From positions 124,001 to 188,000 of the forward strand of contig NZ_WHJG01000005.1 of assembly GCF_011682175.1 (NCBI RefSeq): a DNA stretch of 64,000 bases. Direction: 5' to 3'. This document shows, in pieces, positions 38,377 to 50,705 of the stretch. The notes below the pieces were generated by a model. That model searched no databases and was not told the DNA's origin. It saw only the letters and a list, made by a program, of their open reading frames with translations. Origin of the DNA: Massilia frigida. Its GTDB lineage: Bacteria > Pseudomonadota > Gammaproteobacteria > Burkholderiales > Burkholderiaceae_D. How positions within the stretch are numbered: position 1 is the stretch's first letter; each line of letters starts with the position of its first letter. Position numbers and translations under genes: made by a program.

Positions 38377-39462
38377 ATGCCCCAATTCGCCCCGCTCCAG
38401 AACGACACATTCCTGCGCGCGCTGCTGCGCCAACCGACTGATTACACCCCTGTGTGGCTGATGCGTCAGGCGGGGCGCTACCTGCCGGAATACCGCGCCA
38501 CGCGCGAGCGGGCCGGCTCCTTCCTGGGCCTGGCCAAGAACCCCGATTACGCCACTGAAGTGACCCTGCAGCCGATCGACCGCTATCGGCTGGATGCCTC
38601 GATCCTGTTCTCGGACATCCTCACCGTGCCCGACGCGATGGGCCTGGGCCTGTACTTCGTCGATGGCGAAGGCCCCAAGTTCGAGCGTCCGCTGCGCACC
38701 GAAGCCGATGTCATGGCCCTGCGTGCGCCCGACCTGGACTCGCTCGACTACGTATTCAAGGCGGTCACCCAGATCCGTGGCGCCCTCAATGGCCGCGTGC
38801 CGCTGATCGGCTTTTCCGGCAGCCCATGGACCCTGGCCTGCTACATGGTTGAAGGCGGCGGTTCCAAGGAATTCCACACCATCAAAAAGATGCTGTACAA
38901 CCGCCCCGACCTGATGCACCACATCCTGGCCACCAATTCCAGCGCGGTGGCGGCCTACCTGAACGCCCAGATCGATGCCGGCGCCCAGGCCGTGATGATC
39001 TTCGACTCCTGGGGCGGCGCGCTGGCCGACGGCGCCTACCAGACCTTCTCGCTGCACTACATGCAGCAAGTGATGAGCCAGCTCAAGCGCGAGAAAGACG
39101 GCGTGCGCATCCCGGCGGTGGTCTTCACCAAGGGCGGCGGCCTGTGGCTGGACCAGATCGCCGACATCGGCGCCGACGCGGTCGGGCTGGACTGGACCGT
39201 CAACCTGGGCCGCGCGCGCGCGCTGGTCGGCCACAAGGTGGCGCTGCAGGGCAACCTCGACCCGGCGATCCTGTTTGCCAGCCCGGAACAGATCCGCGCC
39301 GAAGTCGAGCGTACCCTGACCAGCTACGGCAAGCCGTCCGACGGCTCAGGTCACGTGTTCAACCTGGGTCATGGCATCTCGCAATTCACCCCGCCCGAGT
39401 CGGTCAGCGCCATGGTCGAGGCCGTCCACAGCTTCAGCCGCCAGCAACGCGCCGGCCTGTAG
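38377..39462 (+). CDS. hemE: uroporphyrinogen decarboxylase
   Basis: Haem pathway enzyme that decarboxylates four acetates of uroporphyrinogen III (361 aa, normal). The signature [18 protein letters not shown] holds substrate-binding arginines, and [13 protein letters not shown] and NLGHGI are conserved. Its 3' end faces the DnaA-box-rich gap before priA. Confidence 0.96.
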
Positions 39463-39608
39463 TCTGGCTACAGCGATGCCACCCTGGCAAGGTGGTTTCG
39501 CTACCCCGCAGAACCTGTTTTCTAAACGACAATATCCCACTTATTCACAATTTTCCAAAACACCCCTGATTAAAAAACAGGCGCTGCGGAAAAGTTTCTG
39601 ATGCTTGC

Positions 39609-39621
39609 AAGTGATTGATTT
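39609..39621 (+). repeat. 13-mer direct repeat, copy 1, AT-rich
   Basis: AAGTGATTGATTT followed by an AT-rich run (TTAAGGAATTATAAAATT). The identical 13-mer occurs again at 40014, also followed by AT-rich DNA. It resembles a DNA unwinding element repeat. Confidence 0.7.
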
Positions 39622-40013
39622 TTAAGGAATTATAAAATTCGCCTGTCGAGCCGCAGAGCGCGAATGTGGACAAGATACAGAGGGAAAACGCGGTTTTTCC
39701 AGCATTGTCCACAAAGTTATCAACAGGCAGTGTGGATAAAAAGGAAAAGTCCCGCGTTTACCGCGACTTAGCGGAAATGTGAAGGTTTTACATGAAGTGT
39801 GTGCCGCACGGCGGAATGGCGCGGCACTGTGTCGGTAGGGCAAAATTGTAGTTTCCGGGAGGCAGTCCGGAGGCCCGCGCGAGCCGACGGCGGGCTGTGC
39901 TTATACACAGCGCCAGGCTGGCGAGACGACTACATTTTGCCCCGTCGCCGACTTACTTATGCACAGAACGCCGGTAAAACCCGGTTTTCCCCGTCTCCCA
40001 AGGCGGATTTTCC

Positions 40014-40026
40014 AAGTGATTGATTT
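40014..40026 (+). repeat. 13-mer direct repeat, copy 2, AT-rich
   Basis: Exact copy of the 13-mer at 39609, same orientation, followed by AAAAGGATTAAATTTC. It lies about 83 bases before the pair of TTGTCCACA boxes at 40109 and 40121. Confidence 0.7.
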
Positions 40027-40214
40027 AAAAGGATTAAATTTCTTTGATTTTCAGTTCTTAGGCTCATCTATTGTGCAAGCACAAAGCTTTTGGCCTCGCA
40101 CAAATTGTTTGTCCACAAAGTTGTCCACAAGCTGAAGCTGCTTGAAACGATGTCCTGGACATCCCTGACGATCCTCTTTTTGACACCCGCCGACCCCGAC
40201 CGACACCGACCCTG

Positions 40215-42236
40215 ATGGCGTACTGCATTCTCAACATCGCGCTCGACACGCCGCTCACCAGCTGCTTCGATTACCGCTGGCCGTGCGCCGCCGGCGAGGA
40301 GCCGCTGGTGGGCCAGCTGGCGCTGGTCAGCTTTGGCCGCCGCGAGGTAGTCGGGCTCATCGTCGCGGTCAAACACCACACCGAGGTCCCGGCCGACAAG
40401 CTCAAAGATGCATTGGCCGTGCGCAGCCAGCTTTCTCCCCTGGCGCCGCAATGGATCGCGCTGGCGGCGTTCGCCGCCGACTACTATCAGCGTCCGCTTG
40501 GCGAAGTGGCCTTGCCCGGGCTGCCCAAGAACCTGCGCGTGCTCACCACCGTGGCGCTGGAGCGCGCCCTGAAAAAGCTGGCCAAGAGCGCGCCGGCGCA
40601 CGACCACACCCCGCTCGACATGCCGCTGCTGAACGGCGCGCAGCAGGAAGCGGCCGACGCCATCGGCGGCGCGCAGGGCTTCACCCCGATCCTGCTGTAC
40701 GGCGTGACCGGCAGCGGCAAGACCGAAGTCTATCTGCAGGCCTGCGCCGAGGTACTGGCGCGCGAAGAGGGTGGCCAGATCCTGATCCTGGTCCCCGAGA
40801 TCAACCTCACGCCTCAGCTGGAAGGCAATATCCGCGCGCGCTTTCCCGGCGTGATGCTGGCCACCTTGCACAGCAGCCTGTCCGAGGGCGAGCGCATGCT
40901 GCACTGGCTGGCCGCGCACCAGGGGCAGGCCCGCATCATCCTCGGCACGCGCCTGGCGATCCTGGCATCGCTGCCGCAGCTGAAGCTGATCGTCATCGAC
41001 GAAGAGCACGACCCCTCGTACAAACAGCAGGAAGGGCTGCGCTATTCGGCGCGCGACCTGGCGGTGTGGCGCGCGCGCCAGCTGGGCATTCCGATCGTGC
41101 TCGGATCGGCCACGCCCTCGCTGGAGAGCTGGCATCATGCTGGCTCCGGGCGCTATCGCAAGCTCGAACTGCGCGAGCGCGCCGTCAAGGATGCGGTGCT
41201 GCCGCGCGTGAAGTTGCTCGACATGGAGCGCGACAAACCGGTCGACGGCATCACCTCCCATCTCATGGCGGCGCTGCGCCAGCGCCTGGAGCGCGGCGAA
41301 CAATCGCTGCTGTTCCTGAACCGGCGTGGGTACGCGCCCGTGATCTGTTGCGAATCGTGCGGCTGGATCAGCAACTGCACCCGCTGCACCTCCTTCATGG
41401 TGCTGCACAAGCCCGAGCACCGGCTGCGTTGCCACCACTGCAGCCTGGAGCTGCGCATTCCGCGCCACTGCCTGACCTGCGGCAACGTCGACCTGCAACC
41501 GCTCGGGCGCGGCACCCAGCGGGTCGAAGAAGGCTTGCAGCAGGTTTTTCCGCAGGCGCGCATTTTGCGCATCGACGCCGACTCCACGCGCCTCAAGGGC
41601 AGTGCGCAGGCCGCGTTCGACACGGTGCACCGGGGCGAAGTCGATATTTTGATCGGCACCCAGATGGTCGCCAAGGGGCACGACTTCAAGAAACTGACCT
41701 TGGTGGGGATTCTCAATCCCGACACGGCGTTGTTTTCGCAGGATTACCGGGCCAGCGAGCGCCTGTTCGCGCAGCTGATGCAAGTGGCCGGGCGCGCGGG
41801 CAGGGCGGCGCGCACGGAGGGCGGCAGCGTGAGCGAAGTGCTGATCCAGACACGTTACGCCAGCCATCCGCTGTATTCGGCGGTGGTGAACCACGACTAC
41901 GACCGTTTCGCCACTGATTTGCTGGCGGAGCGGCGCCAGGCTGCGCTGCCGCCGTATCTGTACCAGGCCCTGTTGCGGGCCGAGGCGCCCGAGCTGGAAA
42001 CGGCGATTGGTTTTTTAGAGAGTGCGCGCGACGCGCTGGTATTTGACGGCATTACGCTGAACGACCCGATCCCGATGACGATGACGCGCGTGCACAACGT
42101 CGACCGTGCGCAGCTGCTGGTCGAAAGTCCCTCGCGGCCGGCGCTGCAAGCCTTCCTCAAAGAATGGCTGGCCCTGTTGCGCGCCATGAAAAGCCGCGTC
42201 AAATGGTCGCTCGAAGTCGACCCCCTCGATATCTGA
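40215..42236 (+). CDS. priA: primosomal replication restart helicase
   Basis: 3'-5' helicase that reloads the replisome at stalled forks (673 aa, somewhat shorter than E. coli's). Walker A is GVTGSGKTEVY and motif II DEEHDPSYKQQ. A two-zinc cysteine cluster (CCESCGWISNCTRC and CHHCSLELRIPRHCLTCG) lies near residues 377-425. The gene begins directly after the DnaA-box cluster, so DnaA could influence its expression. Confidence 0.96.
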   Translation: MAYCILNIALDTPLTSCFDYRWPCAAGEEPLVGQLALVSFGRREVVGLIVAVKHHTEVPADKLKDALAVRSQLSPLAPQWIALAAFAADYYQRPLGEVALPGLPKNLRVLTTVALERALKKLAKSAPAHDHTPLDMPLLNGAQQEAADAIGGAQGFTPILLYGVTGSGKTEVYLQACAEVLAREEGGQILILVPEINLTPQLEGNIRARFPGVMLATLHSSLSEGERMLHWLAAHQGQARIILGTRLAILASLPQLKLIVIDEEHDPSYKQQEGLRYSARDLAVWRARQLGIPIVLGSATPSLESWHHAGSGRYRKLELRERAVKDAVLPRVKLLDMERDKPVDGITSHLMAALRQRLERGEQSLLFLNRRGYAPVICCESCGWISNCTRCTSFMVLHKPEHRLRCHHCSLELRIPRHCLTCGNVDLQPLGRGTQRVEEGLQQVFPQARILRIDADSTRLKGSAQAAFDTVHRGEVDILIGTQMVAKGHDFKKLTLVGILNPDTALFSQDYRASERLFAQLMQVAGRAGRAARTEGGSVSEVLIQTRYASHPLYSAVVNHDYDRFATDLLAERRQAALPPYLYQALLRAEAPELETAIGFLESARDALVFDGITLNDPIPMTMTRVHNVDRAQLLVESPSRPALQAFLKEWLALLRAMKSRVKWSLEVDPLDI

Positions 42237-48590: not shown

Positions 48591-48644
48591 AGATGAGGCG
48601 TACGTTACAATGGCCGGTCGTCCCCCACCAGATTGCCCCGCCCG

Positions 48645-50705
48645 ATGTCCTCCACCCCCAATTTCGGCCTGAACGTTCCCCAGAGCGAAGCGGTCATGTA
48701 TCTTGACGGCCCTTGCCTGGTGCTGGCCGGTGCCGGCTCGGGCAAGACGCGCGTGATCACCCAGAAAATCGCGCACCTGATCGAAGACCGCGGCTACGAT
48801 CCGCGCACCATCGCGGCCCTGACCTTCACCAACAAGGCGGCGCTGGAAATGCAGGAGCGCATCGCCAAGCTGCTCAAGCAGCCGCGCCAGGCCAAGCAGC
48901 TCACCGTCTCCACCTTCCACTCGCTCGGCGTGAAAATCCTGCGCCAGGAAGCGGCCGGCGTGGGTCTGAAAGACCGTTTTTCCATCATGGACAGCGACGA
49001 TTGCTTCGGCCTGGTCCAGGATTTGGCCATCACCACCGACAAGCAACTGATCCGCAGCATCCAGAATTCCATCTCCCTGTGGAAAAACGCCCTGATCGAT
49101 CCCGAAGACGCGGTCAAGCACGCCAAGGATGAAGACGAAGCCCAGGCCGCGCGCGTGTTCCGCAGCTACGTGGCCACGCTCGCGGCCTACCAGGCGGTCG
49201 ATTTCGATGACCTGATCCGCCTGCCGGTGGAACTGTTCCGCAACAACGATCCGATCCGCGACAAGTGGCAGCGCCGCCTGCGCTATCTGCTCATGGACGA
49301 GTATCAGGATACCAACACCTGCCAGTACGAACTGGTCAAGCTGCTGGTCACGGGCATCGGCAAGAAACCCATGTTCACCGCCGTCGGCGACGACGACCAG
49401 GCCATCTACGCCTGGCGCGGCGCCTCGGTGGAAAACCTGAAAACCCTGGGCGACGATTTTCCCGACTTGCGCGTCATCAAGCTGGAACAGAATTACCGCT
49501 CCACCACCCGCATCTTGCAGGCGGCCAACGCGGTCATCTCGAACAATCCCAAGCTGTTCGAAAAAGCCCTGTGGTCCGAACACGGCCTGGGCGAGCCGAT
49601 CACGGTGCTCGGCATGCAGACCGACGACCAGGAAGCCGAGCAGGTGGCGATCATGATTTCGTCCGACCGCTTCCAGCGCAAGAACAAGTGGTCCGATTAC
49701 GCCATCCTGTACCGCGGCAACCACCAGGCGCGCGTGATCGAGCAATGCCTGCGCAAGGAACGCATTCCGTACACGATTTCCGGCGGCCAGAGTTTTTTCG
49801 ACAAGGCCGAAATCAAGGACATCATCAGTTACCTGCGCCTGATCGCCAACGAGGGCGACGATCCCGCCTTCATCCGCGCCGTCACCACGCCCAAGCGCGG
49901 GGTCGGCATGGCCACCCTGGAAGTGCTGGGCGCGTTTTCCAAGCAGTGGAATTGCTCGCTGTTCGAGGCCACCTTCAAGGGCGGCATCGAAGCCAAGCTG
50001 CCGGACCGCCAGCTGTTGCCGCTGCGCGCATTTTGCAACTTCATCAACCAGCTCGAAGCGCGCGCCAGCCGCCCCGGCCCGTCCGGCAGCGGCGAGAACG
50101 CGGCCGCCGTGCTGGACGACATGATGAAGGAAATCGCTTACGAGAGTTATCTGTACGACACCTTTGACGACCGCGCCGCGCAAAGCAAGTGGCTCAATGT
50201 GCTCGAATTTACCAACTGGCTCAAGGAACGCGGCTGCGGCGGCAAGGATAAATCCGGCGAGGAAAAAAACCTGCTGGAACTGACCCAGATGGTGGCCTTG
50301 ATGTCCATGTTGGAAGGCAAGGACGAGGAGCCGGACGCGGTGCGCATGTCGACCCTGCACGCCTCCAAGGGATTGGAGTTTCCGCACGTCTTCCTGGTCG
50401 GCGTGGAAGAGGGCATCTTGCCGCACAAGGGCGACCCGGACGCGTCGGTGGAAACCATCGGCGCGCGCATCCAGGAAGAACGGCGCCTGATGTACGTGGG
50501 CATCACGCGCGCCCAGCGCACCTTGTATATCACTTGGTGCAAGAAACGCAAGCGTGCCGGCGAGCAAGTTCATTGCGATGTGTCGCGCTTCATCAAGGAG
50601 ATGGCGCTCGACGTCGGCACCGCCGCACCGACCGAGGCGGAAACGGTCTCTCCCAAGGATCGCCTGGCCAGCCTGAAAGCCTTGCTTGCAACACCGAAAA
50701 CATAG
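48645..50705 (+). CDS. rep: ATP-dependent DNA helicase Rep
   Basis: 686-aa superfamily I 3'-5' helicase that helps forks pass obstacles. Walker A AGAGSGKTRV, motif II LLMDEYQDTN, motif III GDDDQAIYAWRGA and later motifs (LEQNYRSTTRI, MSTLHASKGLEF, RRLMYVGITRAQ) are intact. ATG at 48645 is preferred to the TTG at 48633. UvrD is similar, but length and VGDDDQAIYAWRGA favour Rep. Confidence 0.92.
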   Translation: MSSTPNFGLNVPQSEAVMYLDGPCLVLAGAGSGKTRVITQKIAHLIEDRGYDPRTIAALTFTNKAALEMQERIAKLLKQPRQAKQLTVSTFHSLGVKILRQEAAGVGLKDRFSIMDSDDCFGLVQDLAITTDKQLIRSIQNSISLWKNALIDPEDAVKHAKDEDEAQAARVFRSYVATLAAYQAVDFDDLIRLPVELFRNNDPIRDKWQRRLRYLLMDEYQDTNTCQYELVKLLVTGIGKKPMFTAVGDDDQAIYAWRGASVENLKTLGDDFPDLRVIKLEQNYRSTTRILQAANAVISNNPKLFEKALWSEHGLGEPITVLGMQTDDQEAEQVAIMISSDRFQRKNKWSDYAILYRGNHQARVIEQCLRKERIPYTISGGQSFFDKAEIKDIISYLRLIANEGDDPAFIRAVTTPKRGVGMATLEVLGAFSKQWNCSLFEATFKGGIEAKLPDRQLLPLRAFCNFINQLEARASRPGPSGSGENAAAVLDDMMKEIAYESYLYDTFDDRAAQSKWLNVLEFTNWLKERGCGGKDKSGEEKNLLELTQMVALMSMLEGKDEEPDAVRMSTLHASKGLEFPHVFLVGVEEGILPHKGDPDASVETIGARIQEERRLMYVGITRAQRTLYITWCKKRKRAGEQVHCDVSRFIKEMALDVGTAAPTEAETVSPKDRLASLKALLATPKT

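Follow-up and report, generated by a model that had tools for sequence, protein, structure and literature searches.

The closest described systems to the locus analyzed here are the Escherichia coli sites DARS1 and DARS2, which recharge DnaA, and datA, which does the opposite job. DARS was reportedly discovered by Fujimitsu in 2009, and to our knowledge little is known about DnaA reset outside the E. coli group. Regarding their location, we take datA to be origin-proximal and DARS2 not to be; in E. coli, DARS2 additionally requires the Fis sites FBS2-3. Head-to-head DnaA boxes are essential for DARS according to excerpts of PMC10380432, and the DARS2 elements IBS1-2 are two IHF sites 3 bp apart, as stated in part of PMC4245941. 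A minimal datA consists of one IHF site and boxes 2, 3 and 7, which are essential, together with box 4 (PMC10950094, in excerpt), and excerpts of PMC4245941 and PMC8682772 describe Fis as conserved in E. coli-related gammaproteobacteria. Partial texts of the literature yielded no paper in which a site resembling DARS or datA is connected with priA or hemE; in its available part, PMC13220808 contains both terms without linking them. Since the accessible section of a review reports conservation of DARS-like sequences across many species of proteobacteria, an earlier mention of such a site is possible.

The window, i.e., the whole 64,000-nt stretch of DNA analyzed, corresponds to positions 124001-188000 of contig C211 (287 kb) in the draft genome of Massilia frigida (7.79 Mb, 255 contigs). 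It includes hemE and priA, whose intergenic gap harbors two tandem DnaA/IHF modules (Table 1) and lies at least 123 kb from either end of the contig. HemE is 98% identical to HemE of Massilia mucilaginosa, aquatica, atriviolacea and rubra. As pointed out in a preceding sequence-only reading, dnaA is absent from the window; it sits on a different contig, and its translation carries GGRDHTTVLHA. We take this motif to be the DNA-binding signature of DnaA, so that its presence supports the E. coli box consensus for this genome. At 6.4 kb after priA, a Rep-type helicase gene is found at window positions 48633-50705 (NCBIfam rep, 855 bits, cut-off 951), and a similar Rep-type gene, assigned by eye, begins 0.6 kb after priA in genome G040 (L316).

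Table 1. Features of the hemE-priA region (positions in the window) and sites with DnaA-trio repeats in this and related genomes.
Feature	Position	Strand	Remarks
hemE, uroporphyrinogen decarboxylase	38377..39462	+	NCBIfam TIGR01464, 423 bits, cut-off 303
hemE-priA intergenic gap, two tandem DnaA/IHF modules	39463..40214	.	752 bp
Module A outer DnaA box TTATTCACA	39541..39549	+	
Module A perfect IHF consensus AATCAATCACTTG	39608..39620	-	119 bp from box I, 67 bp from outer box
Extra DnaA box TTGTCCACA	39665..39673	-	
Module A DnaA box TTGTCCACA, counterpart of DARS core box III	39705..39713	+	triad, 1 mismatch
Module A DnaA box TTATCAACA, counterpart of DARS core box II	39717..39725	+	
Module A inverted DnaA box TTATCCACA, counterpart of DARS core box I	39731..39739	-	head-to-head with box II
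Module A tail, AAAAG ... GACTTAGCG	39740..39773	+	similar in upstream copies of relatives
Extra DnaA box TTATACACA, between modules	39901..39909	+	
Module B outer DnaA box TTATGCACA	39957..39965	+	
Module B perfect IHF consensus AATCAATCACTTG	40013..40025	-	
Module B box pair TTGTCCACA-N3-TTGTCCACA (40109 and 40121)	40109..40129	+	
priA, primosomal protein N' / replication restart helicase	40215..42236	+	NCBIfam NF004067, 939 bits, cut-off 763
Origin-type site of this genome	C186:24727-25293 (24.7 kb; L109:8727-9285)		DnaA boxes and DnaA-trio repeats
Trio sites, G043	363.2, 363.7, 364.2 kb		
Trio sites, G027	277.8, 278.3 kb		
Trio site, G016	1854.6 kb		
Trio sites, G001	5417.5, 5417.9 kb		
Trio sites, G289			two

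All nine DnaA-box-like sites listed in the sequence-only reading were located in the gap, and its statement that chance would give almost none agrees with the occurrence of TTATNCACA, which is found four times in the 64 kb, always within the gap, compared to 0.40 expected and at most three in each of 100 shuffles. On the entire 287 kb contig, 9 of 17 boxes of the form TTRTN[CA]ACA fall in the gap, which is the sole cluster with at least four such boxes per 700 bp. Moreover, the gap contains two perfect IHF consensus sites absent from the earlier reading, both on the minus strand and one per tandem module. Each module starts with an outer box, followed by the IHF site and a pair of boxes 12 bp apart; only in module A is the pair followed by a head-to-head box at 14 bp. 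The resulting triad (39705-39739) is the best in the window with one mismatch, the runner-up having five, and the best triad in 200 mononucleotide shuffles of the gap has six mismatches. For module B, no good inverted box was detected after the pair, and the triad would require seven mismatches. The tail after the triad (AAAAA, then a CTTAGC-like motif) is kept in tandem copies and also in copies distant from priA.

Comparison with E. coli, made on fetched sequence, revealed that the DARS1 and DARS2 cores carry boxes at 0 (+), +14 (-) and +26 (-), and that the triad of module A is the reverse complement of this arrangement with the same offsets. The best triad has two mismatches in the bioD-uvrB region (DARS1) and three in the rppH-mutH region (DARS2). 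Because the latter triad is followed by two IHF-like sites (one mismatch each) at +93 and +109 that are 3 bp apart, like IBS1-2, we took it as the DARS2 core. The elements of a DARS core, i.e., three boxes with I and II head-to-head and III beside II, are present in module A and incomplete in module B. Like DARS2, our locus also has an IHF site whose helical distance to the core is fixed; located at +119, this site is shifted by 10 bp relative to IBS2 at +109 and, in contrast to the DARS2 sites, matches the consensus perfectly. Further differences to DARS1 and DARS2 are the tandem copies, the outer box on the strand opposite to box I, the location upstream of priA, and the vicinity of the origin. 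Upstream of priA, E. coli lacks a module of this kind.

In the datA region, a box (+) is followed at 65 bp by an IHF site (-) and after another 97 bp by a box (+) and then an inverted box. Module A likewise has one IHF site between DnaA boxes in the same order and on the same strands, with distances of 67 and 97 bp. In contrast to our locus, the datA region lacks a good DARS triad (best, five mismatches), and its head-to-head pair is 12 rather than 14 bp apart. Based on these matches in triad and spacing, the element combines the DARS-defining core with the outer spacing of datA. As the core is what has been named essential for DARS, it was given more weight, and we classified the element as DARS-like, with a datA-like function as the main rival.

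The DnaA-site cluster of the hemE-priA gap is genuine and old. In 52 of the 55 hemE loci of the family, including our own, priA is the next gene downstream, and every one of these 52 gaps contains at least two boxes; two of the remaining three run off the locus, and in G040 hemE has neither priA nor boxes beside it. In G044, G038 and G040, the module precedes priA although hemE is located elsewhere or was not found, indicating that the element follows priA and not hemE. The 52 gaps together contain 226 perfect boxes on the plus strand; among these, a same-strand offset of 12 occurs in 47 cases and any other offset up to 60 at most once. Inverted boxes show offsets of 14 (50 cases) and 26 (34 cases), as well as an offset of 1 (82 cases) that corresponds to the near-palindrome of TTGTCCACA itself. 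The boxes are thus conserved, a feature that the sequence-only reading had named as support for an origin, but their layout is of the DARS/datA type and not that of an origin.

A triad with at most three mismatches is present in 45 of the 55 family loci and missing at this threshold from 10, and when 80 named loci were scanned over their whole length, 22 required at least four mismatches; the best triad in 20 background stretches of 4 kb, all taken from G043, has seven. G034 and G057 were left out, as they show neither hemE nor a real PriA match, probably due to assembly gaps. A strict spacing pattern misses the priA modules at 187–190 bp in G078, G106 and G153 as well as that of G273, which starts with TTGTGCACA, and 14 of 76 named gaps do not fit it yet hold four to five boxes. 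The priA locus of G071 has no box at all, and that of G006 a degenerate one.

Scanning of 79 loci yielded 78 triads with at most two mismatches. In 52 of them, an IHF site with perfect consensus is found +118 to +121 from box I. The outer box, on the strand opposite to box I, mostly lies at +187 to +205. We also examined 160 modules, chosen because they have a distal box and one perfect IHF site. Here, the distance from box to IHF site falls into groups of 55–58 (42 modules), 65–69 (75) and 75–79 bp (42), approximately one helical turn apart, with a single module at 43 bp; the phasing has a resultant of 0.889 at 10.7 bp, a value reached by none of 2000 uniform nulls. The distance from IHF site to distal box forms groups of 96–98 and 107–111 bp, with one module at 134 bp. 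The modules stem largely from close relatives, and their counts are therefore not independent. This helical phasing suggests that a DNA loop made by IHF may join bound DnaA molecules. In many genera, the distal box pair is found ∼80–97 bp from the start of priA.

Beyond the family, a two-box pattern that does not require an IHF site is present in 177 of 300 genomes of the order (2 for the reversed control, counted by eye) and in 104 of 184 genomes of the class (control, 2), our own included in both. The box-IHF-box pattern was detected in 23 of 79 genomes (G000–G020 and G351–G408, taken in sequence), i.e., in 16 of 21 family genomes vs. 7 of 58 class genomes, and in 0 of 79 controls. Modules lie beside priA in many families; among 18 loci outside the order, which are the first listed and not a random draw, eight are upstream of priA and ten have no priA within 1.5 kb. 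Our genome itself harbors a second DnaA/IHF module, at C222:36637 (L303:6637-6818), upstream of a UvrD/PcrA-like helicase gene (NCBIfam pcrA, 361 bits, below the cut-off of 911), and the same holds for G051. In three genomes of family f30 (G315, G172 and G289), priA carries a module and a further copy is located between the 3′ end of yifB/comM and a convergent gene; the triad of this copy is poor in G289. The tail recurs in copies ∼500 bp from priA.

Several other arrangements of such sites were observed. A further box pair (L303:10241-10261) lies 3.4 kb beyond the second module, before a gene that by eye is response-regulator-like. In G326, five IHF consensus copies, each exactly 42 bp before a DnaA box, form an array between xseA-like and ExbB/TolQ-like genes, again assigned by eye (L313:8215-8889), which differs from the priA module. 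Inverted pairs of TTATACACA, 184–185 bp apart, are found on at least six contigs of our genome (C22, C175, C176, C178, C186 and C189) and probably represent a multicopy repeat or mobile element. On C180, a unit with TTATCCACA and TTGTTAACA is repeated three times at 130 bp spacing (L115:5905-6199).

The sequence-only reading had proposed the gap as a candidate chromosome origin, which is not borne out: an origin-type site exists on contig C186, and in two relatives the gap lies inside a replichore. Very probably, the gap is not the start point of chromosome replication. As the motif of a BUS-type origin, we took a DnaA box followed by DnaA-trio repeats and scanned for it in the window as well as in 3.7 Mb of fetched sequence. 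The 12 rows obtained correspond to 11 distinct places in the 3.7 Mb, with none in the window and none in the 52 hemE-priA gaps of the family. The C186 site is likely the true oriC of our genome, judging by its motifs and neighborhood: it is located 11.6 kb from a parS match and ∼11–12 kb from mnmG, and adjoins a gene for a GMC-type oxidoreductase. It is of the BUS type, with TTACTATTACTACT-like trios 13–18 bp after the box, whereas the gap has no trios; both have several TTATCCACA boxes per locus.

The same GMC-type oxidoreductase gene adjoins the trio site in all six genomes (our own and five relatives), and mnmG is nearby in five of them, the exception being the stretch read of G016. Trio sites are found ∼6–13 kb from a parS match in our genome, G043, G027 and G001; G016 has no parS match. 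Given this spacing, G025 was read 2.5–12.5 kb beyond parS, where two trio sites are present at 5138.2 and 5138.6 kb, ∼43 kb from its gap. No trio site was detected in the 20 kb around parS in G049, G030, G013 and G023. Where both could be placed, in five relatives, the gap is 31–328 kb away from the trio site. The origin-type motif occurs in tandem, two or three times, at L112:233-1328 (G043), L357:8163-8554 (G025) and L092:14844-15261 (G027).

Strand skew places the gap inside one replichore in G043 and G001, two relatives with complete genomes and a long distance between gap and trio site. In G043, 14 stretches were sampled from 6.15 Mb to 343 kb, a range that includes dnaA and the gap (107 kb); 13 of them have a negative skew, with a value near zero (-0.003) in the gap's own stretch, and five of seven stretches from 363 kb on are positive. 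In G001, the cumulative skew is low from 5.40 Mb with a minimum at 5.50 Mb, and the gap (5.75 Mb) lies in positive skew. In G027, the distance of the gap to the trio site is ∼31 kb and that to the skew minimum ∼60 kb. In our own contig C211, the minimum of the cumulative skew is near 245 kb and not at the gap, and the skew of the window shows no origin-like switch there, contrary to what hand-counted lines had hinted at in the earlier reading. Within the 400 kb read of G016, an upward step of the raw cumulative skew coincides with the gap; KOPS, which we assume to be GGG[ACT]AGGG, are mainly positive on both sides of this gap, with no switch. The KOPS minimum of G043 (170–190 kb) coincides with neither gap nor trio site, no clear minimum is seen in the KOPS counts of G001, and counts per contig are too few to place an origin. 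Fourfold-site skew by gene strand was too noisy.

Based on what we presume to be the dif consensus, the point opposite the dif-like site in G027 and G043 is 3 and 9 kb away from the trio site, respectively. In G025 it lies inside the gap, and in G016 ∼24 kb from the gap and 221 kb from the trio site. Its distance to hemE and parS is 73 and 47 kb, respectively, in G049 and 357 and 119 kb in G023; a dif-like match was not found in 3 of 10 genomes. An origin beside dnaA was rejected, as our own dnaA has one perfect upstream box and the skew of G027 is positive on both sides of dnaA. The likeness to the Caulobacter oriC, which we take to adjoin hemE, is confined to this neighbor gene; here, hemE points with its 3′ end toward the site, and the element tracks priA rather than hemE. 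For Cupriavidus metallidurans, part of PMC2864759 places the skew transition next to a region of 213 nt that carries three perfect boxes, at 90 kb from dnaA, and the origin position of Burkholderia cenocepacia chromosome 1 is called uncertain in an excerpt of PMC4948915.

On balance, the gap is probably a non-coding, DARS-type site for the control of DnaA with two tandem modules, one of them with a complete core, that would recharge DnaA in an IHF-dependent manner. The sites, their order, orientation, helical phasing and conservation as well as the absence of the origin motif were computed, and the core geometry, the IHF site close to the IBS2 position and the box-to-IHF phasing all point to this function. 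It is harder to reconcile with the outer spacing of datA, with the missing inverted box of module B, with those loci that lack a good triad, and with the proximity of the gap to the origin. The last feature would instead suit a datA-type site, which together with IHF would promote hydrolysis of DnaA-bound ATP, or titrate DnaA, and thereby restrain initiation after firing. Such a role is rather unlikely in our view: the shared order, strands and distances favor it and tandem copies suit titration, but datA itself has a poor triad and a different head-to-head spacing, and titration needs no conserved triad.

That the element tracks priA even where hemE is not adjacent would fit cis-regulation as well as a DARS-type site. 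A region through which DnaA and IHF control priA and the UvrD/PcrA-like helicase gene, linking the supply of restart helicase to initiation, is suggested by modules directly upstream of priA in many families, by the second copy before a helicase gene, and by the ∼80–97 bp between the distal box pair and the start of priA in many genera. No match to a sigma-70-like promoter was found in the gap, which may hold a weak or other promoter, and the tail recurs in copies ∼500 bp from priA. The copies between convergent genes are what chiefly argues against a mere promoter element, and we regard control of priA as its function as distinctly unlikely. Both a DnaA-titration site and DnaA control of priA had been named in the sequence-only reading, and they come closer than an origin, so that its interpretation is supported in part. 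The dense DnaA boxes, IHF sites and AT-rich stretches of the gap, the dif antipodes of G025 and G016 and the skew step of G016 would agree with the chromosome origin or a second active one. Against this stand the 52 gaps devoid of trio motifs, the C186 site, the G025 motif outside its gap and the unchanged skew sign across the gap of G043 and of G001, which make an origin highly improbable.

For a DARS-type site, we propose that ADP-DnaA present after initiation would bind the core triad (boxes I–III, two of them head-to-head), and that IHF would bend the DNA at its fixed helical position so that DnaA at the outer box could touch the core. Interaction of the AAA+ domains may then release ADP from DnaA, and apo-DnaA would rebind ATP for the next round at the real oriC near mnmG and parS on another contig. 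Binding of DnaA and IHF, ADP release and any effect on priA expression are predictions from sequence. More tentatively, the element could be an ancestral, class-wide DnaA control locus that adjoins priA in beta- and many gammaproteobacteria and combines a DARS core with an IHF loop of the datA type, roles that were split among DARS1, DARS2 and datA in E. coli. Such a locus might couple DnaA recharging to the supply of restart helicase and have been copied to a second helicase gene in some genera.

A sequence-defined candidate in Betaproteobacteria makes DnaA reset directly testable in this group, with a control site that is separated from the likely origin. Its geometry of triad, IHF site, outer box and helical steps provides a search template for such sites in other proteobacteria. 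If datA and DARS of E. coli descend from one composite locus, this would change the view of their evolution.
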